A stretch of 64,000 bases of DNA from a virus. Where the stretch lies: positions 53,582 to 117,581 of the IMG/VR virus record IMGVR_UViG_3300021963_000047, one strand, 5' to 3'. The notes beneath the pieces are model-generated. The model did not search any database, had not been told where the DNA came from, and saw only the letters and a list, made by a program, of their open reading frames with translations. Shown here in pieces: positions 8,268 to 63,984 of this stretch (positions are counted from its first letter, which is position 1; the number at the start of each line of letters is the position of its first letter). Position numbers and translations under genes: made by a program.

Positions 8268-9225
8268 TAAGATCTTTACTACCATTCTTAATTAATTCTT
8301 CTGTTTTTTCTGTTACAAAACCAGTCACTTGTAATGTAAATCTTGGTGTATATCCGAAGTTTGCAGTTCCATGTGGCATGTTACACCAATCATATACTAA
8401 ACATTCTCCAGCATCATATTGATGATAGTAAGTATTGCCAAATTGCCATACGTGGCCATAATCCCAATCATTCAATGCTATTAATAGTCTTCTAAGTTTG
8501 AGCGGGTTCTTATCTGCACCAGCTGCTTTCCATCTATCTCTCCAGTGTGGTCTAGCATATCGCATTTGTTGATCAATATGAAATGGTGTAACTTGTCCTA
8601 ATAATTGGATATGAATCCTCATCTGATGTACATCAAAGCCTATAGCTTCTGCCATTCTATGAAAAACTAAGTAATCTTCATGATGATTATTTTTCCAATC
8701 TTCTTTACCATCTTTATCAAAACCAACAAGAGAAACTAAAGAATCATTATACATACAAGATATGTCTTCTTGTCTAGAAGCACGTTTTATATCCAGTAAT
8801 TCTCCTTCATGAAGATCTTTATCTTGTTGTGACAAATTTCTAGGTCTGTAGTTGCCTATAGTTTGTTCTTTACAATCATTTAAAGCTTTCTCTAGTCCTT
8901 TAGACCAATCACCTTTAAACTTACACATGATCTTAAATGTTTCTTCATTTGGATCTGCTTTAGTATTAAAGTGCCAGTTTGATCTTAACTTATTATGATG
9001 CCATCTAGAAGGTATACCATCAACAGTAAAGACATTCATGTTAGATTCAGAATGTTTCTTTAGTTGCTCATCAGAATACATATCTTCTTGATACTGTGAA
9101 TCTTCAATGTTTACACCAGCTTGAAGCTCAGGCACTTTTTCTGGCATATACTCAGATATATTTTGTTTTGAATTCCAATTATATCCTTGATTCTTTATCA
9201 TTTTGCTTGTATCATACGTGGTCAT
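8254..9225 (-). CDS. 2OG-Fe(II) oxygenase-like (Asp/Asn hydroxylase type) protein
   Basis: 323 aa. The C-terminal half has the double-stranded beta-helix facial triad HxD...H: H216-x-D218 in VTPFHIDQQMRY and H285 in NMPHGTANFGYTPR, with R295 as probable 2-oxoglutarate-binding Arg. RRLLIALNDWDYGHVWQFG resembles aspartyl/asparaginyl beta-hydroxylase-type proteins. It is paralogous to the product of 19498-20301, which shares GDW near the N terminus and the HGT-NFG--PR ending. It is last gene of a five-gene minus-strand operon, overlapping the upstream gene by 4 bp. It probably hydroxylates a protein or small molecule; substrate unknown. Confidence 0.65.
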   Translation of the reverse strand: MTTYDTSKMIKNQGYNWNSKQNISEYMPEKVPELQAGVNIEDSQYQEDMYSDEQLKKHSESNMNVFTVDGIPSRWHHNKLRSNWHFNTKADPNEETFKIMCKFKGDWSKGLEKALNDCKEQTIGNYRPRNLSQQDKDLHEGELLDIKRASRQEDISCMYNDSLVSLVGFDKDGKEDWKNNHHEDYLVFHRMAEAIGFDVHQMRIHIQLLGQVTPFHIDQQMRYARPHWRDRWKAAGADKNPLKLRRLLIALNDWDYGHVWQFGNTYYHQYDAGECLVYDWCNMPHGTANFGYTPRFTLQVTGFVTEKTEELIKNGSKDLIIEV

Positions 9226-9749
9226 TTGTTTCCTGGCCCTTCACCCCTGACTGAATATTGTATTTTTGATATTAACCAATCATATGATTTTTCATCAGAA
9301 ACATCTATATCTACCGCATAATGTACTGTAGAATCTCTAAAACAAAAACTGTAATGACATAAATTTGAATTTATTATCATCCATTGGTTTTGTCTAAAGT
9401 GTTGAATCTTTCCGTCAATAATATATGTACAATCTTCTGGATGTGTAAAATTTGGATGACAATTCAATCTAATATATTTTCTTTGATATTTCTCAAGTAT
9501 TAAATCCCTGTGTGGTAAAAAGAAACTACCACGATTTAATTCTATCCTGACCGGTTTGTTAGTTATAACATACTCAGGAATATTCCATGTTTCTGGTGGT
9601 CTTTTATAATGCCAAACAAGCTTATTACCTATCTGATTTTCATACTTTTTTTGTTCTACAAGATCAGAATGTATCATTTCGTGTGGAGCATACAGATCTA
9701 ATCCTATAACATTTCCATATAATGAAAATATCTCAGTTGTAGAAAGCAT
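9222..9749 (-). CDS. Small 2OG-Fe(II) oxygenase-like protein
   Basis: 175 aa. H80-R-D82 (SFFLPHRD) and H132 (NSNLCHYSF) give an HxD...H arrangement. Between them lies YIRLNCHPN...CTYIIDGKIQHFRQNQWMIIN, the strand order of the aspartyl/asparaginyl hydroxylase-like cupin fold. It resembles the next upstream product (9750-10331) in this order of elements, so the two look like diverged tandem copies. It abuts that gene with no spacer and overlaps the downstream gene by 4 bp. Iron binding and hydroxylase activity are inferred from motifs only. Confidence 0.5.
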   Translation of the reverse strand: MLSTTEIFSLYGNVIGLDLYAPHEMIHSDLVEQKKYENQIGNKLVWHYKRPPETWNIPEYVITNKPVRIELNRGSFFLPHRDLILEKYQRKYIRLNCHPNFTHPEDCTYIIDGKIQHFRQNQWMIINSNLCHYSFCFRDSTVHYAVDIDVSDEKSYDWLISKIQYSVRGEGPGNK

Positions 9750-18941: not shown

Positions 18942-19522
18942 AACAACCTCATATTTGTTCTATGATTCATTCCTGTCTTTTCAGAAACTCTATCTACCCA
19001 GTCATGATCTATAGAACCATCTTTTTTTAACCTATGAATTATAGTTGGTTGAACTATAAGTTTTAAATCTAAAGTATCAGACCAATATTGTACTAACATC
19101 TCATTCCAACCATAATACATGTCATCACCATGTTCATTCATATTTCCTCTAAACACAGCAATTCCATTTTTCTTTAATACTCTTTTCATTTCTAAAAGTT
19201 GATGTTCAATAGTAATATCATCACCAAAGTTGATACTACCATAACATAAGCATGCATCAACAGTTTCATCATTATATGGAAGATGAGATATGTCAGCTTT
19301 TATATCTGCTCTTCTATTTGCTATATCTATTCCAACTAAATTTTGAATATGATCTTTGTATTGATTATCACCACAACCGAGATCTAATACTAAAGAAGGA
19401 TTAAGTTTGTTAATCCTTTCTATAGTTTCTATACCACACTTTTCAAATTTATTAATATCATGTGGTCGTCTTTTTAAACTCTTATCAAAAGCTTTTATTA
19501 TATTTGTATTATTTTCTGACAT
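18923..19522 (-). CDS. SAM-dependent methyltransferase (class I)
   Basis: 199 aa from the ATG at 19522; a TTG at 19540 would add six residues. LVLDLGCGDNQYKDHI is motif I, with VGIDIANRRADIKADISHLPY giving the acidic motif II and following loop. VDACLCYGSINFGDD and MKRVLKKNGIAVFRGN correspond to motifs IV-VI of Methyltransf_11-like enzymes. It resembles the product of 20298-21002, which has the same DVGCGDN-YKD-I start and a GS(I/L)NFG motif. It overlaps both neighbours. Substrate unknown; a surface glycan is plausible from context. Confidence 0.7.
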   Translation of the reverse strand: MSENNTNIIKAFDKSLKRRPHDINKFEKCGIETIERINKLNPSLVLDLGCGDNQYKDHIQNLVGIDIANRRADIKADISHLPYNDETVDACLCYGSINFGDDITIEHQLLEMKRVLKKNGIAVFRGNMNEHGDDMYYGWNEMLVQYWSDTLDLKLIVQPTIIHRLKKDGSIDHDWVDRVSEKTGMNHRTNMRLFWIWQK

Positions 19523-20301
19523 GTCCTTAAAAAATCCCAAGATTCTGGTGTCATAGCACCAGTAATATTTAATGTAGGTCTAGGTTCATGTCCAAAATTG
19601 CAAGTGCCATGAGGTATATCTCTCCAAGGCCATGTCATACAATCACCACGTTTCCACGTTAAGAATTCATTACCTTGTTTCCAAACTTGACCCTGCTTTT
19701 GATCATCAAGAAATATTATAACTCTCATAAGTTTTCTTTGATCATGATCACATTCTGCAAACTTATTATAATCATCTCTTAGATTACGAAGAAGACCACC
19801 AAAGTTATCTAAATGCCAATAAAACATTTGACCCGGCAATTGAACATCAAACTTTACATTTGGTCCGCCCTTTCTACCACCAGGATGTTTAAATTTAAAT
19901 ACATCAACAATCTTCTGTATCTTTTCTGGAACTTCGAAGTGTCTTGTTCTATTTAAAACAGTATACTGATTTTCACCACCGTCTACATTATAACCCCATT
20001 TCTTGAAGTCATTGTATTCCATGTTATTATTGTTATCTTTGCGAGGATCAGCTCTATAATCAAACGTAGCTGGTTCTGTCTGTGACATGAGTTGTTTAAC
20101 TTCTTCATCCCAATCTCCTGTAAAATTGCAAATTGGAATATGTGTCGGTGGATCACAGTCAGTATCATCTTTATTATCATCAAAATGGTATAAAGAAGTA
20201 GCTTTGCAAAATTCAAATAACCCAGCATAATCTTTATATGATACAGGTTCTTTAGTCTTTAAGTTCTTCCACAGTTCATACGGACTTTTATCAAACTTCA
20301 T
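19498..20301 (-). CDS. 2OG-Fe(II) oxygenase-like (Asp/Asn hydroxylase type) protein
   Basis: 267 aa. GQMFYWHLDNFGG gives H163-x-D165; DIPHGTCNFGHEPRPTLNITG gives H231 and R241. RVIIFLDDQKQGQVWKQGN matches the core of the relative at 8254-9225, and both have an N-terminal GDW(D/S) segment. It is second gene of the minus operon, with ATGA overlap to the methyltransferase upstream and 25-bp overlap downstream. It is probably an iron-dependent hydroxylase; substrate unknown. The relative 10 kb away suggests duplication or repeated acquisition of a cassette. Confidence 0.65.
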   Translation of the reverse strand: MKFDKSPYELWKNLKTKEPVSYKDYAGLFEFCKATSLYHFDDNKDDTDCDPPTHIPICNFTGDWDEEVKQLMSQTEPATFDYRADPRKDNNNNMEYNDFKKWGYNVDGGENQYTVLNRTRHFEVPEKIQKIVDVFKFKHPGGRKGGPNVKFDVQLPGQMFYWHLDNFGGLLRNLRDDYNKFAECDHDQRKLMRVIIFLDDQKQGQVWKQGNEFLTWKRGDCMTWPWRDIPHGTCNFGHEPRPTLNITGAMTPESWDFLRTCQKIIQI

Positions 20302-35003: not shown

Positions 35004-35011
35004 TATAAATA
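35004..35011 (+). promoter_or_regulatory. Late promoter after the gp23 terminator
   Basis: An exact TATAAATA begins directly after the T run of the terminator and ends 19 bp before the ATG at 35031. It restarts late transcription for the tail-tube-like gene. Confidence 0.8.
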
Positions 35012-35030
35012 GTATAAAATGAGGAGTCAC

Positions 35031-35552
35031 ATGGCAGCTATAGAAAATACACCAACAAATCCAAATTTTCTTTCACCGCTTAATTTTAAGTTTTCAATTA
35101 AGCGCGCGCCTCACATTAACTTCTTTATTCAAAAAATTAGTATACCGTCTTTAAACTTGCCATCATATAATTCTCCTAATCCATTTGTTAAAATACCGGA
35201 ACCCGGTGAACACATAGATTATGGAGATCTTGAACTTACATTTAGAGTAGATGAAAATTTAAAAAACTATTTAGAAATTCACAATTGGATACGTGCATTA
35301 GGAAAACCTAAAGACTTCTCTGAGTATAGAGCTCTTTCTCAAAATAAAAACTATACTGGTGATGGTATAAGATCTGATATATCTTTAACAATACTATCAA
35401 GCGCTAAAAATGCAAACTATGAAATAGTATTCACCGATGCTTATCCATATGAATTAAGCAAACTTACATTTGATACTACTGACCAAACGGTAGACTATAT
35501 CGAAGCTTCAGCCACATTTAAATACGTTTTATTTGAAATAAAAGATATTTAA
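35031..35552 (+). CDS. Tail-tube-fold protein (gp19/gp54-like)
   Basis: 173 aa from the ATG after GAGGAG; an earlier in-frame ATG at 35019 lies upstream of that RBS and is rejected. NFKFSIKRAPHINFFIQKISIPSL, PFVKIPEPGEHIDYGDLELTF and RVDENLKNYLEIHNWI follow the beta-barrel pattern of T4 tail tube and its initiator gp54. It is likely a tube-related component, for example initiator or terminator ring, placed after gp23 as in marine T4-like phages where this slot is sometimes labelled gp3. The exact role is uncertain. Confidence 0.7.
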   Translation: MAAIENTPTNPNFLSPLNFKFSIKRAPHINFFIQKISIPSLNLPSYNSPNPFVKIPEPGEHIDYGDLELTFRVDENLKNYLEIHNWIRALGKPKDFSEYRALSQNKNYTGDGIRSDISLTILSSAKNANYEIVFTDAYPYELSKLTFDTTDQTVDYIEASATFKYVLFEIKDI

Positions 35553-57795: not shown

Positions 57796-58668
57796 ATGTT
57801 TAAATTATTTGATGTAATTAGCAATTTCGTAACCCTTAAAAAAGGTAAAGCAAAAGAAATTGTAATTGGTAAAAAAGGTAGAGTATCACCTAGATATGGC
57901 AATGAGCTTCTCTGCGCAAGATACTATAATGAAGATGAGAGTCATTATATAGATCTTTATGTGCCTTTAAAAGGACCATTAGGTGTATGGATGAGTGGTG
58001 GTGCTGATAGTAGTATGTTAGCATTTTTATTGGCTAAAACAATAAAAGATTATAATTTAGATGTTAAAATATTGCCTATGAGTTTTAAGAGAGATGATAA
58101 ACCTTGGAATATGTGGGTAGCTACAAATATAGTAGAAAGAATAGAAGAAATACTTGATATAAAAAAGGGTGAGATATTTTTAAATCATAATTATTGTTAT
58201 TTTGGTGACTATAAATCAAAAGAGTTCTTACCAAAATTACGTAAGCATGTTGAAAGCTTAAAAGACAATAAGTTGATTACTATTTGTTACACTGGATTAA
58301 CTAAAAATCCAGAAGATATTCCTGAAGATATGATCGAATCTAGAGAATTTTCTAGAGATGAACCGGCAAAAAAAATATTAGAAGAAAAAGATGAATATAA
58401 AGAAGAATTGATTATTTCAATACCATTCTTATTTCAAGATAAAAAGTTTATAGCTGGTTTATATAATAAATTAGGTTTAATGGAAAAATTATTTCCATAT
58501 ACTAGATCATGTGAAAATGTTATTCATAATACTGATTTTTTTAAAACGTCTTGTGGTAAGTGTTGGTGGTGTAAAGAAAGAAAATGGGCATTTGGTAGTT
58601 ATACAAAAGATCCACTAAAACATATACAACCATCAAATAAAATAATAAGATCGTGTGTAGCAGTATAA
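57796..58668 (+). CDS. QueC-like PP-loop protein (7-deazaguanine type)
   Basis: 290 aa. GVWMSGGADSSMLAFLLAK (near residue 65) is the PP-loop ATP-binding motif. CENVIHNTDFF then TSCGKCWWCKERKWAFGS gives the four-Cys zinc site with C--C--R--AF seen in 7-cyano-7-deazaguanine synthases (QueC). Such enzymes convert carboxy-deazaguanine to preQ0, used for tRNA queuosine or phage DNA deazaguanine modification. No queD, queE, folE or DpdA-like gene is visible in this window, so the substrate could also be different. It lies where T4 has gene 43. Confidence 0.6.
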   Translation: MFKLFDVISNFVTLKKGKAKEIVIGKKGRVSPRYGNELLCARYYNEDESHYIDLYVPLKGPLGVWMSGGADSSMLAFLLAKTIKDYNLDVKILPMSFKRDDKPWNMWVATNIVERIEEILDIKKGEIFLNHNYCYFGDYKSKEFLPKLRKHVESLKDNKLITICYTGLTKNPEDIPEDMIESREFSRDEPAKKILEEKDEYKEELIISIPFLFQDKKFIAGLYNKLGLMEKLFPYTRSCENVIHNTDFFKTSCGKCWWCKERKWAFGSYTKDPLKHIQPSNKIIRSCVAV

Positions 58669-58671
58669 ATA
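58664..58671 (+). promoter_or_regulatory. Late promoter overlapping the QueC-like stop
   Basis: An exact TATAAATA overlaps the stop codon of the QueC-like gene and ends 34 bp before the ATG at 58706. A terminator lies at the end of the downstream short gene (58847-58881), so the two would delimit a short, roughly 200-nt late transcript. Confidence 0.65.
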
Positions 58672-58705
58672 AACTTAAAAACTTATGTGAGGAACATGAA
58701 AATAG

Positions 58706-58927
58706 ATGAAAAGCAATCATAATCAAGTCTTAGTAGAAGAAGTCATAACAGCTCTTGATAAGATGCTTTTATCAAGTGATAAGATATTTGAAGAAAAAAA
58801 ATATGCAAATTATCGTTATGTCAATAACTTAGTTGAAATAGAATACGAGCCTGCTAAGAATCAACTTAGGCAGGCTCTTTTAATGCTTCTTAACGATAAA
58901 ACAAAAGATATATCAGACCAGGAATAA
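58706..58927 (+). CDS. Small unknown protein with terminator inside its 3' end
   Basis: 73 aa, charged and helical (VLVEEVITALDKMLLSSDKIFEEKKY and NNLVEIEYEPAKNQLRQALLMLL). No family recognised. GAGG lies 14 bp upstream of this ATG but only 5 bp from another ATG (58697) that opens an eight-codon frame, so initiation here is uncertain. A strong intrinsic terminator is embedded in codons 48-59. The last 38 bp overlap the convergent membrane protein gene. It may be a genuine small protein, or the region may mainly encode a short RNA. Confidence 0.45.
   Translation: MKSNHNQVLVEEVITALDKMLLSSDKIFEEKKYANYRYVNNLVEIEYEPAKNQLRQALLMLLNDKTKDISDQE
58847..58881 (+). terminator. Intrinsic terminator within a coding region
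   Basis: GAGCCTG-CTAAG pairs with CTTAG-G-CAGGCTC (12 bp, one bulged G), with loop AATCAA and a following CTTTT. It is strong for the plus strand; on the minus strand the stem is not followed by a T run. It would end plus-strand transcription from the replication block before the convergent minus-strand genes, but lies upstream of the stop of gene 58706-58927. Confidence 0.75.
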
Positions 58928-59120
58928 TTATAAAGAATTGTGGTAAGAAATTTACTATTATTGCTTTTTCATTCCATCTGAAACCAACATAAGTCCAACC
59001 AGCAGCTCCTAATAATTGTAAAATAGAATTGTATGGAGTTATGCCTAATACGTGCAGCACCATTGCACATAGAATAATAATTGCACTGCACCACTTCACA
59101 TAAAAAACATGATCATACAT
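58890..59120 (-). CDS. Small membrane protein (DUF6552-like)
   Basis: 76 aa from the ATG at 59120; an in-frame TTG at 59132 adds four residues. Three hydrophobic segments: AIIILCAMVLHVLGI, ILQLLGAAGWTYVGF and FLPQFFIIIPGLIYLLF. VKWCSAIIILCAMVLHVLGI...P-N--L-LLGA--W--VG--W is the pattern of small DUF6552-like proteins common in marine myoviruses. Inner-membrane location is predicted; function unknown. It overlaps the oxygenase gene upstream by 8 bp and the convergent gene downstream by 38 bp. Confidence 0.6.
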   Translation of the reverse strand: MYDHVFYVKWCSAIIILCAMVLHVLGITPYNSILQLLGAAGWTYVGFRWNEKAIIVNFLPQFFIIIPGLIYLLFYR

Positions 59121-59793
59121 TTGTATCTTCAATATAATTGATCATCTCAACGTTATCAACACTTTGATAATGATATCTATCAAATGGATCTATATTTGTT
59201 TTACCGAGTGGCATAACATTAAAAGATAGAATGGTTCTAGCTCTATCTGATCGATTAATAGCAGTATCATGAACGGCCCAAGCTGGAAATATAATAAGCT
59301 TTCCTTCTTCCCATGGAATACTCTGCTGATTTCTCATTCGAAGCGGTTTACCGTTTCTAGCAGGTGTAATTTGTTGTGCATATCTGTGTGGAGCATAAAA
59401 AACTGTTCCTCCAGTATTTTCACCACCATCCAAATAATACACTCCACCAAAAAATGAATTATGGTGTGAATGCATATGATGATATCCTATATTAGGATCA
59501 TGTTTTGTTGCCCACAATCCTGTCATACAAAATTCAGGAATATAACCATAGTCATCCATAGCAAAAGCAATACATTGTTTGAAAAAGTCTGTAAACTCTT
59601 TCATTTCTTCTTCTTTATGAAGATTAGGATGTGTAAATTTTAAAGTCTGTCGACGAGTATTCTTTTTATAGAGTTCTTCATCACTAAGAAAATTTAAAGC
59701 CTTTTCTTTAAACTCATTATGCTTTTCATACTTAAAAGAATATAATGGAGTGTAAAATGGTTTTAAAATTTTCATATTATTATTTGACATATT
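59113..59793 (-). CDS. 2OG-Fe(II) oxygenase (TIGR02466-like)
   Basis: 226 aa from the ATG after GAGGAT; an upstream in-frame start at 59820 would overlap the previous gene. GYHHMHSHHNSFFGGVYYLDG, GTVFYAPHRY, then LIIFPAWAVHDTAINRSDRARTILSFNV match the H-x-H-N-S---GVYYL ... FP---H-V--N----R--ISFN pattern of putative 2OG-Fe(II) oxygenases frequent in marine phages. The distal His and Arg are clear. Substrate unknown. It lies in a minus-strand operon with a glycosyltransferase and an SGNH esterase. Confidence 0.75.
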   Translation of the reverse strand, partial: NMSNNNMKILKPFYTPLYSFKYEKHNEFKEKALNFLSDEELYKKNTRRQTLKFTHPNLHKEEEMKEFTDFFKQCIAFAMDDYGYIPEFCMTGLWATKHDPNIGYHHMHSHHNSFFGGVYYLDGGENTGGTVFYAPHRYAQQITPARNGKPLRMRNQQSIPWEEGKLIIFPAWAVHDTAINRSDRARTILSFNVMPLGKTNIDPFDRYHYQSVDNVEMINYIEDTNV

Positions 59794-59797
59794 ATCC

Positions 59798-60571
59798 TCA
59801 CCAATGTGAACTAGGAACACATCTTTTAAAATTATGACTAAAATAATGGATTAAAAATAAATTACCGTCATTAAATTCATTTTCATTCCAATATTCGTTT
59901 TCTTCATCATCAAGCTTTCTTACATGAAACCTATCTAGATATTGAATATCTATATTCATAGATTTAAATAAATCTGATGATGAGTGTTGATAAGCAATCC
60001 AAGATATCTTATCTATATTAAAATTATTAGAATGTTTTTCTATAAAAGATTCTCTGAAAAAAGCATATTTTTCTAAATAAAAAGAATCAATATATGATGC
60101 TGTATTTTTATCTAAAATAAAAACACCATCATTAAAGCCTTCCCATTCTTTTCTTATAAAGAGACCATTTTGATATAAATCGAAGATATCATCGATGCTT
60201 TTATAAAAGATTGTATCTGTATCTAAATAGAGTATTTGATCTAAGTCAAACTGTTTAAAAGCTTTACATGCATTTGGCCATTTATGAATAACTTGATCAC
60301 ATCGATGCCAAGGATATGTAGTATTACTAGGCTTTACATTATATTCACTTGAATCAAAATGCATAAATTCAATATTATGATAATAATCTCTTACAGTTTG
60401 TCTAGTGCTCTTACTAAGAAGAGTCATATTATTTAAATATATTTTAACTGGTATATCACTGTATGATCTTAGTGTTTTTATTGAATAAATTAATTGTCTA
60501 TAATGCAGACTATCAAAAAGACTATCTTCATTAATATATAATGAATATATTATAGCTCTTTTTTTATTCAT
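59798..60571 (-). CDS. Glycosyltransferase, GT8-like
   Basis: 257 aa. RAIIYSLYINEDSLFDSLHYRQLIYSIKTL opens the fold, FDLDQILYLDTDTIFYKSIDD (near residue 110) has the DxD motif, and WEGFNDGVFILDKNT is the acceptor-side GFNDGVFIL segment typical of GT8-like enzymes. It overlaps the SGNH gene upstream by 4 bp. Probably modifies a surface or virion glycan; acceptor unknown. Confidence 0.65.
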   Translation of the reverse strand: MNKKRAIIYSLYINEDSLFDSLHYRQLIYSIKTLRSYSDIPVKIYLNNMTLLSKSTRQTVRDYYHNIEFMHFDSSEYNVKPSNTTYPWHRCDQVIHKWPNACKAFKQFDLDQILYLDTDTIFYKSIDDIFDLYQNGLFIRKEWEGFNDGVFILDKNTASYIDSFYLEKYAFFRESFIEKHSNNFNIDKISWIAYQHSSSDLFKSMNIDIQYLDRFHVRKLDDEENEYWNENEFNDGNLFLIHYFSHNFKRCVPSSHW

Positions 60572-60978
60572 TTGATCATACTAGCTATTTGCTTATATCC
60601 ACTTGGTGTCGGATGTATTCCATCGTAACTGATATAAGGATGTGACTCAATAACTTTATCTTTAAACTCGTTAGCTAATTCTTTTATTACAGTTCTTTGT
60701 ATTGGCTTCAACGTTAAGCTAGGTGAAATCCAAAATACCATATCTGCATTAATGTGTTTTCGTATATTATATAAAGCTTCTGCTGTAGTATTTTTATAAT
60801 CATTGCTTCCTAAGCTAATGACTACAATTTTATAACTCTTTTTAGTGTTTGGATTTGTATGAAAATTTTTATACCAGTTTTCGCTAGTAATGCCAACTCT
60901 AGCTATCACAGCGCATTCTGGTTTTTGTTGAGCAATGCCAACTGCTATACTATCACCAAGAATCATACATTCTAGCAT
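60568..60978 (-). CDS. Compact SGNH/GDSL esterase
   Basis: 136 aa. All blocks are recognisable: MILGDSIAVG (Ser nucleophile), RVGITSENW (block II Gly), VVISLGSNDYKN (block III) and YDGIHPTPSGYKQIA (Asp-x-x-His). It is small but apparently complete. The likely role is deacylation of a glycan or peptidoglycan, or tail-associated receptor modification. GAGG RBS 6 bp before the ATG; no signal peptide. Confidence 0.8.
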   Translation of the reverse strand: MLECMILGDSIAVGIAQQKPECAVIARVGITSENWYKNFHTNPNTKKSYKIVVISLGSNDYKNTTAEALYNIRKHINADMVFWISPSLTLKPIQRTVIKELANEFKDKVIESHPYISYDGIHPTPSGYKQIASMIK

Positions 60979-60994
60979 GGTGTGCCTCGTTAAA

Positions 60995-61068
60995 TGGCAC
61001 CGGTGGAAGGAGTCGAACCCTCGCCCTCGGTTTTGGAGACCGATGTGCTACCGTAACACTTCACCGAT
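60995..61068 (-). tRNA. tRNA-Trp (anticodon CCA)
   Basis: Read on the minus strand: acceptor ATCGGTG/CACCGGT (one T-G pair), D arm GTGT/GCAC, anticodon arm TCGGT-CTCCAAA-ACCGA giving CCA, T arm GAGGG-TTCGACT-CCTTC, discriminator G and encoded CCA end. Positions 8-9 are AA instead of the usual T8, a mild oddity. It lies 2 bp from the methyltransferase stop. Confidence 0.88.
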
Positions 61069-61069
61069 A

Positions 61070-61621
61070 TTACCTTTTATCAATTATTAAAAATCTAAAG
61101 TGAGCATTTGGTTCTACATAATTAGAAAATTTAAAATCTCTAGTAGGACCGGTTGACTCAAACAATTTAGATCTTTTAATAATATCTTCTGGTATATATT
61201 CTAAAAGGTTATAAAAACCCCACTTTCCTAAAACATCCTCAATCACGTAAAACTTATTAGCTTTATCATAAAAATTTTTAAACGTTTCAATTTGATACCT
61301 ATAATGATGAGCAGCGTCATCAATAATAATATCATACGTATTATTTATTGTTTTTGTTTGTTCATTGTCTTGTGAATCTATATTATAGATCTTAAATTCT
61401 TTTTCCAATTTGTCATCATATAAACGATCTAAGTCAATACCTTCTATCATGGCATCTGGCCATATTTTTTTCCAAGCGCGAATAGATGCACCTTTATATA
61501 GCCCAATTTCTAAAACAGAATCTATAATTTCATTTTCTAATATAGAATTATAGAAGTTATGATAGCCATGAACATATTTGTCAGTGCCACATTCTTTAAA
61601 ATATTTTTCAAATATATTCAT
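61070..61621 (-). CDS. SAM-dependent methyltransferase embedded in the tRNA cluster
   Basis: 183 aa. DSVLEIGLYKGASIRAWKKIWPDAMIEGIDLD gives motifs I and II of class I methyltransferases. TYDIIIDDAAHHYRYQIETFKNFYD matches motif IV of Methyltransf_24/CmcI-like O-methyltransferases, and NKFYVIEDVLGKW motif V-VI. The N-terminal KYFKECGTDKYVHGYHNFYN resembles polysaccharide methyltransferases that start with a GTDK--HGY motif. It may methylate a sugar; a tRNA substrate is less likely. It lies between tRNA-Ser and tRNA-Trp, both on the same strand. Confidence 0.75.
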   Translation of the reverse strand: MNIFEKYFKECGTDKYVHGYHNFYNSILENEIIDSVLEIGLYKGASIRAWKKIWPDAMIEGIDLDRLYDDKLEKEFKIYNIDSQDNEQTKTINNTYDIIIDDAAHHYRYQIETFKNFYDKANKFYVIEDVLGKWGFYNLLEYIPEDIIKRSKLFESTGPTRDFKFSNYVEPNAHFRFLIIDKR

Positions 61622-61807: not shown

Positions 61808-61884
<77 letters not shown>

Positions 61885-63909
61885 TTAAAACTTCCACTTC
61901 ACTCCAGCAGTTCCGACATAACCTGTATAGTCAGAACCCTTATCAAACCCTGCACCTAGTTCAAGTGACACATCTTTATATATGTCTGCCTTTACACCTA
62001 AGCGATTGTTTGTTACAACTTTATATTCTTTATCATACAACAACTTGGATTCAAAGTACACCGATTTGTTGAATTCATATCGGCCACCAATATAAGGATT
62101 GGTTGTTACTGTTGAACCTGCGTTCGGTGCAGTTGATAATAGGGGTGATCCACTCTCGCGAATAGCTCCAATCACTGAATTATTTATAATCACACCAGCA
62201 AGCGGTCTGACTCCTAAGATAGTATTAGGAGCATAAGCACCGAGATCTGCATAATAGTTTGTCTGATTCATCTTAGTACCATTATACAAACCAAACTGTG
62301 GTATAGAAACGTTTGATACGTAATCATTGTGATTAATACCAACTGCTACCTTCCACCATCCATAATTTTGCTTTGTTAAAGCATACATGGTACCAGTGTA
62401 TGATGTAGCTTCAGTCTTAGAATTTAGATAACCAGCAGAAGAACTGCTATCTATTCTAAATGCAACACCTATTGTATTGTTATCTACTGTCTTATTGAAA
62501 CCAAGATCAACACCACCAGATCTTACACCACCAATAGACTTATAATAAGATGCAGAAGGTGTAATCCAACCACCATCTTTAGCAGATAGAGCATCAACTA
62601 AGAATGGATTGAATGACTTAAACTTTGTAGCTTCATTCAGACCAGCCGCAGATGCTGAATGAGTTTCACTTGAACTTGCAGATTGATAATCAATCCAGTT
62701 AGTTGTTTGAGTTATTACTTCATTCTGTGTTGTAGTAGTTGTAACAACAATATTCTCTGTCGATTCTGTTGTAACTGGTGTTCCAGCTGTTGTAGTTGTA
62801 GAACCATCAGAATATGTTGTAACTGTCTGTGGTGTTGTTACTGTAGTTGTAGTTCTTGGTGTAGTCTGTGTTGTTACAGTAGTTATTGGTGTAGTACCAA
62901 TATCAACACGTGTCTTTGGAGTTGCAGCAACTACAGTTGTTGTTCTTGTAACATCAATAGTCTTCTTATTTCTAGAAGCAGCATCTGCAGCACTTGCTGT
63001 GTATGTTGTTGTACCAGCTGTCGTATTTGAAACAGTTACAGTAGTACCTCTAGAAGAAGTAGAAGACGTAGTTGTTTGTCCATCTGAACTACTTGAAGAT
63101 ACTGTAGGAGTACCAGCAGCAGTACTTACAACTGTAGGTGCACCACCGCCACCATTTGTTGCAGCAGAACCATTACCACTTGAGCTAATTGTACCGCCGA
63201 CAGTACCAGCAACGATACCACGAATGATATCATCGAGAGCTGTCACGTTTTGTTGTTGTGAAGTAGTTGCACTTTGTGATGTATTGAAACGATCACTATC
63301 AAGCCAGTTAGTGTCAGCAACAGTAACGATAGTACCGGTCACACCAGAACTTAAAGCTCCTGCACGACCAATCCATGACATACCAGAAACGTTTCCAGCT
63401 GAGTCAGATATAAGTGGAATGCCTTGGCTGTTAACAATGATAGACGCAGCAGCATAGTTAACAGTGATACCACTTGTCATATACGTTGTGTTAACGTTAC
63501 TTGATACGTTATTAACCATACCAAAATTGGCGCCGATTGTGGTATTACCACCACCAAGTGCCATTACAAGTGCAGCAACAGAATTATTACGATCCATACA
63601 GCAGCCTGGATTTTCTGTTACGAAATATGCAAAGCCACCATTAGTAATAAATGATTGATATTTTGTCTGTTCACCAGCAGTCAAAGCTGCAGCATATCTA
63701 AGATCCCATACTTGCTGATATGAGCCAGTAGTTGTTGGGACTTGTGAAACGTCTGTAGTAACTGTTACTGTATGGCCAACAGCTTCTAAACGATTACGAA
63801 CGTTCTGAGTAACAGTTGAATATTGAGCATCGATGACTAAAACTTGGTCAGCCACAGCTGCAGTCGTAAATGCAAACAGGCCAAAGATGGCCGCTAAAAT
63901 CTTTTTCAT
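61885..63909 (-). CDS. Secreted outer-membrane beta-barrel (autotransporter-like) protein
   Basis: 674 aa from the ATG at 63909, preceded by GGAGCAAGAAG; an ORF start at 63942 adds an unlikely leader. Residues 1-20 are a Sec signal peptide (MKKILAAIFGLFAF then TTAAVA, cleavage before DQ). Residues 21-240 form a globular domain starting VLVIDAQYSTVTQNV. Residues about 250-420 are an extremely Thr/Ser-rich stalk. The last 220 residues show alternating beta strands (YYADLGAYAP, PYIGGRYEFN, VSLELGAGFDKG) ending in the aromatic VKWKF typical of BAM-inserted barrels. It would be exported by the host and sit in the outer membrane. Confidence 0.7.
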   Translation of the reverse strand: MKKILAAIFGLFAFTTAAVADQVLVIDAQYSTVTQNVRNRLEAVGHTVTVTTDVSQVPTTTGSYQQVWDLRYAAALTAGEQTKYQSFITNGGFAYFVTENPGCCMDRNNSVAALVMALGGGNTTIGANFGMVNNVSSNVNTTYMTSGITVNYAAASIIVNSQGIPLISDSAGNVSGMSWIGRAGALSSGVTGTIVTVADTNWLDSDRFNTSQSATTSQQQNVTALDDIIRGIVAGTVGGTISSSGNGSAATNGGGGAPTVVSTAAGTPTVSSSSSDGQTTTSSTSSRGTTVTVSNTTAGTTTYTASAADAASRNKKTIDVTRTTTVVAATPKTRVDIGTTPITTVTTQTTPRTTTTVTTPQTVTTYSDGSTTTTAGTPVTTESTENIVVTTTTTQNEVITQTTNWIDYQSASSSETHSASAAGLNEATKFKSFNPFLVDALSAKDGGWITPSASYYKSIGGVRSGGVDLGFNKTVDNNTIGVAFRIDSSSSAGYLNSKTEATSYTGTMYALTKQNYGWWKVAVGINHNDYVSNVSIPQFGLYNGTKMNQTNYYADLGAYAPNTILGVRPLAGVIINNSVIGAIRESGSPLLSTAPNAGSTVTTNPYIGGRYEFNKSVYFESKLLYDKEYKVVTNNRLGVKADIYKDVSLELGAGFDKGSDYTGYVGTAGVKWKF

Positions 63910-63976
63910 ATCTTCTTGCTCCGTTATGTGATGAGTTATCAATCATCAGAAGCATAACGAAACAATAATACTTGAT

Positions 63977-63984
63977 TATTTATA
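63977..63984 (-). promoter_or_regulatory. Late promoter for the beta-barrel gene and downstream tRNAs
   Basis: The plus strand reads TATTTATA, so the minus strand has an exact TATAAATA 67 bp upstream of the ATG at 63909. It would drive the beta-barrel gene late in infection and possibly read on through the tRNA cluster. The remaining 16 bp to the window edge show nothing further. Confidence 0.7.

Follow-up and report, generated by a model that had tools for sequence, protein, structure and literature searches.

Phages alter the surfaces of their hosts with glycosyltransferases, small lipoproteins and partial curli pores. The gene at positions 61885 to 63909 of the window (the whole stretch of 64,000 nucleotides analysed here) raises the question of whether a phage can also place a large protein of its own in the outer membrane of the infected cell and, if so, what that protein would do there. 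A preliminary description of the locus had proposed an autotransporter-like product under a late promoter, with superinfection exclusion, aggregation or a decoy receptor as possible roles.

A phage gene with autotransporter architecture

The open reading frame starts from ATG on the minus strand and encodes 674 residues plus a stop; an in-frame TTG 33 bases upstream of the ATG is a possible alternative start. The parts recognised in the preliminary description (a signal peptide, a globular domain, a Thr/Ser-rich stalk of about 170 residues and a barrel ending in KWKF) were all found, the stalk measuring 167 residues. The features of the locus are as follows.

61885–63909, minus strand: autotransporter-like protein gene (open reading frame; dN/dS 0.035 against contig L001)
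63850–63909, minus strand: Sec-type signal peptide, residues 1–20 (inspection)
63151–63849, minus strand: head (passenger) domain, residues 21–253, predicted alpha/beta GIFT/ThuA-like fold (AlphaFold2 pTM 0.85; Foldseek)
62644–63144, minus strand: Thr/Ser-rich stalk, residues 256–422 (composition)
62611–62643, minus strand: predicted helix preceding the barrel, residues 423–433, at the pore-helix position (AlphaFold2)
61894–62574, minus strand: predicted 12-stranded beta barrel, residues 446–672 (AlphaFold2; Foldseek)
61888–61914, minus strand: C-terminal beta-signal-like motif, ...G-x-x-W-x-F (C-terminal pattern of relatives)
61808–61884, minus strand: tRNA-Pro directly 3' of the stop codon (gene within tRNA array)
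63916–63965, minus strand: predicted 5' leader hairpin pairing the Shine-Dalgarno sequence (GGAG, 63919–63922) (minimum free energy; covariance model)
63977–63984, minus strand: candidate late promoter TATAAATA (exact match; position statistics; identical in L001)

By inspection of the sequence, the N terminus, MKKILAAIFGLFAFTTAAVA/DQ, is a clear Sec-type signal peptide, and a crude signal-peptide rule was satisfied by 42/44 relatives. The stalk consists of 35% Thr and 13% Ser. The gene lies at the end of its record, and its upstream side was read from a second contig, L001, which encodes a protein 99% identical to that of the window. Comparison of the two revealed strong purifying selection along the whole protein (dN/dS 0.036 for the head, 0.037 for the stalk and 0.029 for the barrel).

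The 117,581-base virus record carries a T4-type gp23 major capsid protein (E 6e-152), a terminase and a tail sheath whose nearest counterparts are in Stenotrophomonas phage DLP6 and Caulobacter phage Cr30. These phage structural genes, together with the occurrence of relatives in ~100 viral contigs, ruled out bacterial contamination. When T4 kinship was checked by means of the tail sheath, few of the relatives gave a positive result, as many of their records are fragments or belong to other phages. Downstream of the gene, tRNA-Pro is followed by tRNA-Phe and tRNA-Ser, and in L001 a tRNA-His lies upstream; the gene is thus embedded in a tRNA array, a location common to many relatives with the same barrel type. 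Beside the array, at 57796–61621 of the window, PP-loop ATPase-like, 2OG-oxygenase-like, glycosyltransferase-like, SGNH-hydrolase-like and methyltransferase-like genes were recognised by eye.

The C terminus is predicted to form a 12-stranded autotransporter barrel

Modelling of the C terminus with AlphaFold, which the preliminary description had suggested as a check, predicted a barrel. With 20 family members in the alignment, AlphaFold2 produced the helix at residues 423–433 followed by exactly 12 strands between residues 446 and 672, at a pLDDT of about 90. When the model was compared with solved structures by Foldseek, the best 11 matches were all autotransporters, including NalP (E 9.4e-10, TM normalised by target 0.71), EstA, AaaA, AIDA-I, BrkA, Hbp and EspP. 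The protein ends in ...AGVKWKF; a G-x-x-phi-x-phi ending was present in 46/47 distinct relatives, and the last residue was aromatic in 46/47. This terminal aromatic pattern is that expected of a BAM beta-signal.

The window protein falls under the curated cut-off of the Pfam family PF03797 (Autotransporter). The same cut-off is exceeded in five other phage loci that carry the same head: L007 (E 2e-14) and L026, L027, L028 and L037, whose records range from 7e-15 to 3e-20, the latter value being that of L028. Since relatives with the same head reach PF03797, the window barrel is a divergent neighbour of that family which is not filed as a member. Profile comparison linked the window barrel type to the L007 type (hhalign probability 92%, E 7e-7), each profile detecting the members of the other; it found no sequence link to the L028 type, nor any between the window barrel and the barrel type with PAT-like repeats (A5). 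On the structural model, the protein is an autotransporter by architecture, not a PF03797 member by score. We hold the exported autotransporter architecture, taken alone, to be highly probable.

The protein shares with type Va autotransporters (NalP, AIDA-I, EspP, EstA) the signal, the N-terminal passenger, the helix with a 12-stranded barrel and the terminal aromatic residue. It differs from them in its origin from a T4-like phage, its putative late promoter, a barrel outside PF03797 and heads without a Pfam family. Trimeric autotransporters have an anchor in which three chains build one barrel. The AlphaFold2 model, with 12 strands in one chain, does not have this YadA-type arrangement of four strands per chain. 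YadA-type domains do occur in phages (PMC9146016), where they are likewise surface or fibre proteins named autotransporter.

Heads and barrels are exchanged among viral loci

Whole-protein searches with the window protein gave no match in Pfam, PHROG, NCBIfam, PDB sequences or cultured phages, and a whole-protein homology search returned one near-identical viral contig as its only match. The family was opened by a short head query followed by alignment searches. A scan with the barrel alignment recovered 54 viral loci, whose heads fell into at least five mutually non-matching clustered groups and a singleton. The GIFT-like head was found at 21 loci and a second head, with the motif FIGFAFRQDPAFWTFDN, at 9; three other groups comprised 6, 4 and 3 loci.

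Exchange between heads and barrels was apparent in both directions. L069 and L072 have barrels that are 82% identical and heads that are unrelated; conversely, the window head is 75–83% identical to heads mounted on barrels 35–44% identical to the window barrel. A scan with the second head also returned 54 loci, of which 49 were examined and 45 had complete frames. Each of these 45 has a terminal Phe and a match to one of the three barrel profiles; the window head and the second head therefore each occur on all three barrel types.

The head types tested had no match in Pfam or PHROGs, and two further full-length family members had none among cultured phages. The BFVD database does hold relatives from uncultured Caudovirales phages, namely A0A6J5R861 and A0A6J5L9T3 (53% and 39% identical to the window protein, respectively) and A0A6J5KUW0. 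All three bear the name 'Autotransporter beta-domain containing protein', so the annotation of the barrel is not new; these proteins are known there by annotation only. In a literature search that left most subscription journals outside its range, we found no paper on phage autotransporters of this kind, on head swaps or on the leader. The size of the family, the shuffling of heads and barrels and the leader hairpin appear to be undescribed.

The predicted fold of the head resembles GIFT and ThuA-like domains

The head, modelled with 27 sequences, had as its best Foldseek match the N-terminal GIFT domain of IFT52 (E 9.7e-7, TM 0.63). Further fold matches were ThuA-like proteins, glycosidase accessory domains and glutamine amidotransferases. 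GIFT domains (IFT52, GldG, Wbp1/OST48), the nearest fold to that of the head, have been proposed to bind sugars (PMC7226087); they match it at 11–12% identity, a likeness that is no proof of sugar binding. Pfam support for a GIFT assignment stays below cut-off, ABC_transp_aux reaching 0.04 in one member.

The only copy of the head found in a cellular sequence lies inside a surface-type VCBS/cadherin-like repeat protein (L039, 1220–1951) of a metagenome-assembled genome labelled Mycobacterium sp.; 396 other genomes of the phylum of that assembly contained none.

A probable late promoter precedes the gene

As the preliminary description had claimed, an exact copy of TATAAATA precedes the gene; it lies 75 nt before the ATG. 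By number the octamer is not enriched in the window (16 copies, 12 expected). By position it stands out: 9 of the 16 copies lie 20–110 nt upstream of a same-strand open reading frame start, a fraction that ranks first among 50 permutations of its letters. This placement indicates that the octamer is more than a chance string here, and the claim of a late promoter is borne out to that extent. The octamer is common to the sheath gene and several other genes, the 91 bases upstream of the ATG are identical between the window and L001, and L013, L021 and L023 have exact copies 67–72 nt ahead of the start. Judged by its sequence and placement, TATAAATA behaves as a promoter in the window, putatively one of the T4 late type.

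A hairpin in the leader overlaps the Shine-Dalgarno sequence

Between TATAAATA and the start codon lies a hairpin with a minimum free energy of −20.0 kcal/mol (z −4.5), the second lowest of 87 open reading frame leaders in the window. Thirteen other relatives share the pattern TATG..TGRTGA..GGAG..ATG (z −2.1 to −5.5), which, among the loci compared for it, was restricted to the starts of family genes. A covariance model run over 585 kb gave sense-strand matches before family genes only, members with other heads included, and a collection-wide search with the leader pattern led to genes with other heads. The hairpin is absent from L015, L016, L027, L028, L031, L007 and L037. Comparison with Rfam gave nothing near the gathering score. 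A very stable leader (−20.9 kcal/mol) also precedes the open reading frame ending at 35552 (35004–35552 of the window) and overlaps a copy of TATAAATA.

Two known schemes were tried and rejected. The CUGAUGA motif does not reflect a hammerhead ribozyme, as its flanking strands pair with each other; a scheme of the T4 gene e type, with the late promoter inside the hairpin, was ruled out since late transcription should start ahead of the whole hairpin.

Covering the Shine-Dalgarno sequence, the hairpin probably limits the timing of translation. Alternatively, the inverted repeat might be a DNA operator, or a mere stabiliser of the transcript, and exert no translational control. The repeat is indeed nearly palindromic, the covariance model matching the opposite strand too, and its strong conservation leaves little covariation, with two of three measures no higher than in shuffles. 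Against this alternative, the 3' arm overlaps the Shine-Dalgarno sequence, and the stem is rebuilt by paired changes, from U-A to C-G in L035/L038 and to GUAAUG/CAUUAC in L107. At one pair, U-A and C-G occur in a ratio of 10:7, and pairing is canonical in 94% of cells, a value reached by 0/1000 shuffles. Given the high sequence conservation and the two measures within the range of shuffles, the evidence from covariation is moderate. We think an operator or stabiliser rather unlikely.

Proposed function at the surface of the infected cell

The structural models suggest that the gene very probably makes the infected cell insert a protein with a long stalk into its outer membrane. This would be a monomeric, type Va-like autotransporter encoded by the phage and made late in infection. 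The host Sec system would export it, the host BAM complex would insert the 12-stranded barrel into the outer membrane, and the head would be displayed outside the cell on the Thr-rich stalk. From this architecture we infer that the surface of the infected cell is changed. Signal, stalk and barrel would form a chassis on which different phages mount different heads. Heads that change while the chassis stays constant are as expected of a binding surface that has to fit different partners, and the same anchor with different heads suggests that phages re-dress the surface of infected cells. The head may be an adhesin-like binder, probably of glycans, through which infected cells would stick to neighbouring cells or particles, or their surface would become coated. 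An adhesin role for the head is credible, at a little under an even chance. As an explanation of the whole, a displayed type Va-like phage autotransporter with an adhesin-like head, controlled by its leader, is the best we can offer, and we lean slightly towards its being correct.

In L014 (3133–8419), L037 (4949–14911) and L031 the autotransporter gene adjoins a phage curli-like cluster. By Pfam, the L014 cluster encodes CsgF, CsgG, a curlin-repeat protein (PF07012), FecR and a CHASE2-guanylate cyclase protein; the window record, which may be incomplete, is without CsgG. Phage curli (type VIII secretion), known from pelagimyophages and the methylophage Melnitz, are comparable in being phage-encoded export to the surface of the infected cell, whereas the autotransporter belongs to another secretion type. 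For the partial curli of pelagimyophages, aggregation ('sibling capture') has been proposed (PMC7029224); with a cultured marine phage that has a partial curli set no clumping was seen, and a role in lysis was proposed (PMC9004378). CsgA and CsgB are reported missing from these clusters (PMC7029224, PMC9004378), unlike that of L014 with its curlin-repeat protein.

Among the roles named in the preliminary description (superinfection exclusion, aggregation, decoy), which the sequence does not tell apart, our reading leans towards adhesion or aggregation. In superinfection exclusion or receptor masking, the head would cover or compete for an LPS or outer-membrane protein receptor, and so stop other phages, or released progeny, from adsorbing to the infected cell or its debris. 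Surface display is predicted under this alternative also, as the barrel model and fold matches indicate, and a variety of heads on a common chassis would be expected if each were matched to a receptor of its own; a block to superinfection by surface proteins of phage origin has been proposed (PMC9004378). However, the heads showed no receptor-like homology, and the promoter is of the late type. In T4, exclusion is known to be the work of imm and sp, whose expression is early. The late promoter, the early expression of these T4 genes and the curli neighbours of some copies modestly favour adhesion or coating, and we regard exclusion as somewhat doubtful.

A secreted or displayed enzyme, whose head would be an extracellular esterase- or amidotransferase-like catalyst on the model of EstA or NalP, is improbable. 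Full-length autotransporter enzymes (EstA) are among the structural matches and the fold of the head is GATase-like, but its GCC cysteines are absent from L009, L035 and others, which makes a thiol enzyme unlikely; moreover, the best structural match, IFT52, is not known to be catalytic, and the chassis also carries other heads that are unrelated to this one. A virion-associated adhesin or tail component would agree with a late promoter and with the Thr-rich modular proteins common in tail fibres, but is highly improbable for a protein with a signal peptide, a complete 12-stranded barrel and a beta-signal end, encoded in a tRNA array outside the tail module.

More broadly, and quite speculatively, environmental phages may share a display system in which a regulated leader RNA and an autotransporter chassis carry unrelated, swapped binding heads that reprogram stickiness late in infection, the leader representing a new class of cis-regulatory RNA. 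A widespread phage autotransporter with interchangeable heads would give viruses a general means of displaying large proteins of their own on infected cells that are still alive, and the reason for the curli pores and outer-membrane barrels of aquatic phages becomes a testable question.

Other genes near the family

Further genes recur near the autotransporter gene in relatives. A small outer-membrane barrel (PF13505, about 183 aa) is located nearby in L005 (2999–3553), L025, L033, L034, L035 and L038. A different small exported barrel-like protein of 149 aa, ending in VLKRF, is encoded in L018 (1015–1464), L019, L022 and L021, and lies directly upstream of the autotransporter in the first three. 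A BPL_N/GATase-like protein (PF09825) is found a few genes away, mostly upstream, in L018 (262–1011) and seven other loci. The upstream neighbour in L001 (977–2416), kept in L021, L023 and L033, is a DUF7788/DUF2828 protein according to Pfam, and an assignment to Ro60/TROVE was dropped on that account. Finally, L028, a phage contig of 183.7 kb, encodes an isocitrate lyase (8355–9563; PF00463, 1e-101) beside a gene that by eye is ribonucleotide reductase-like, and contains a desaturase-like frame at 19281–20216.
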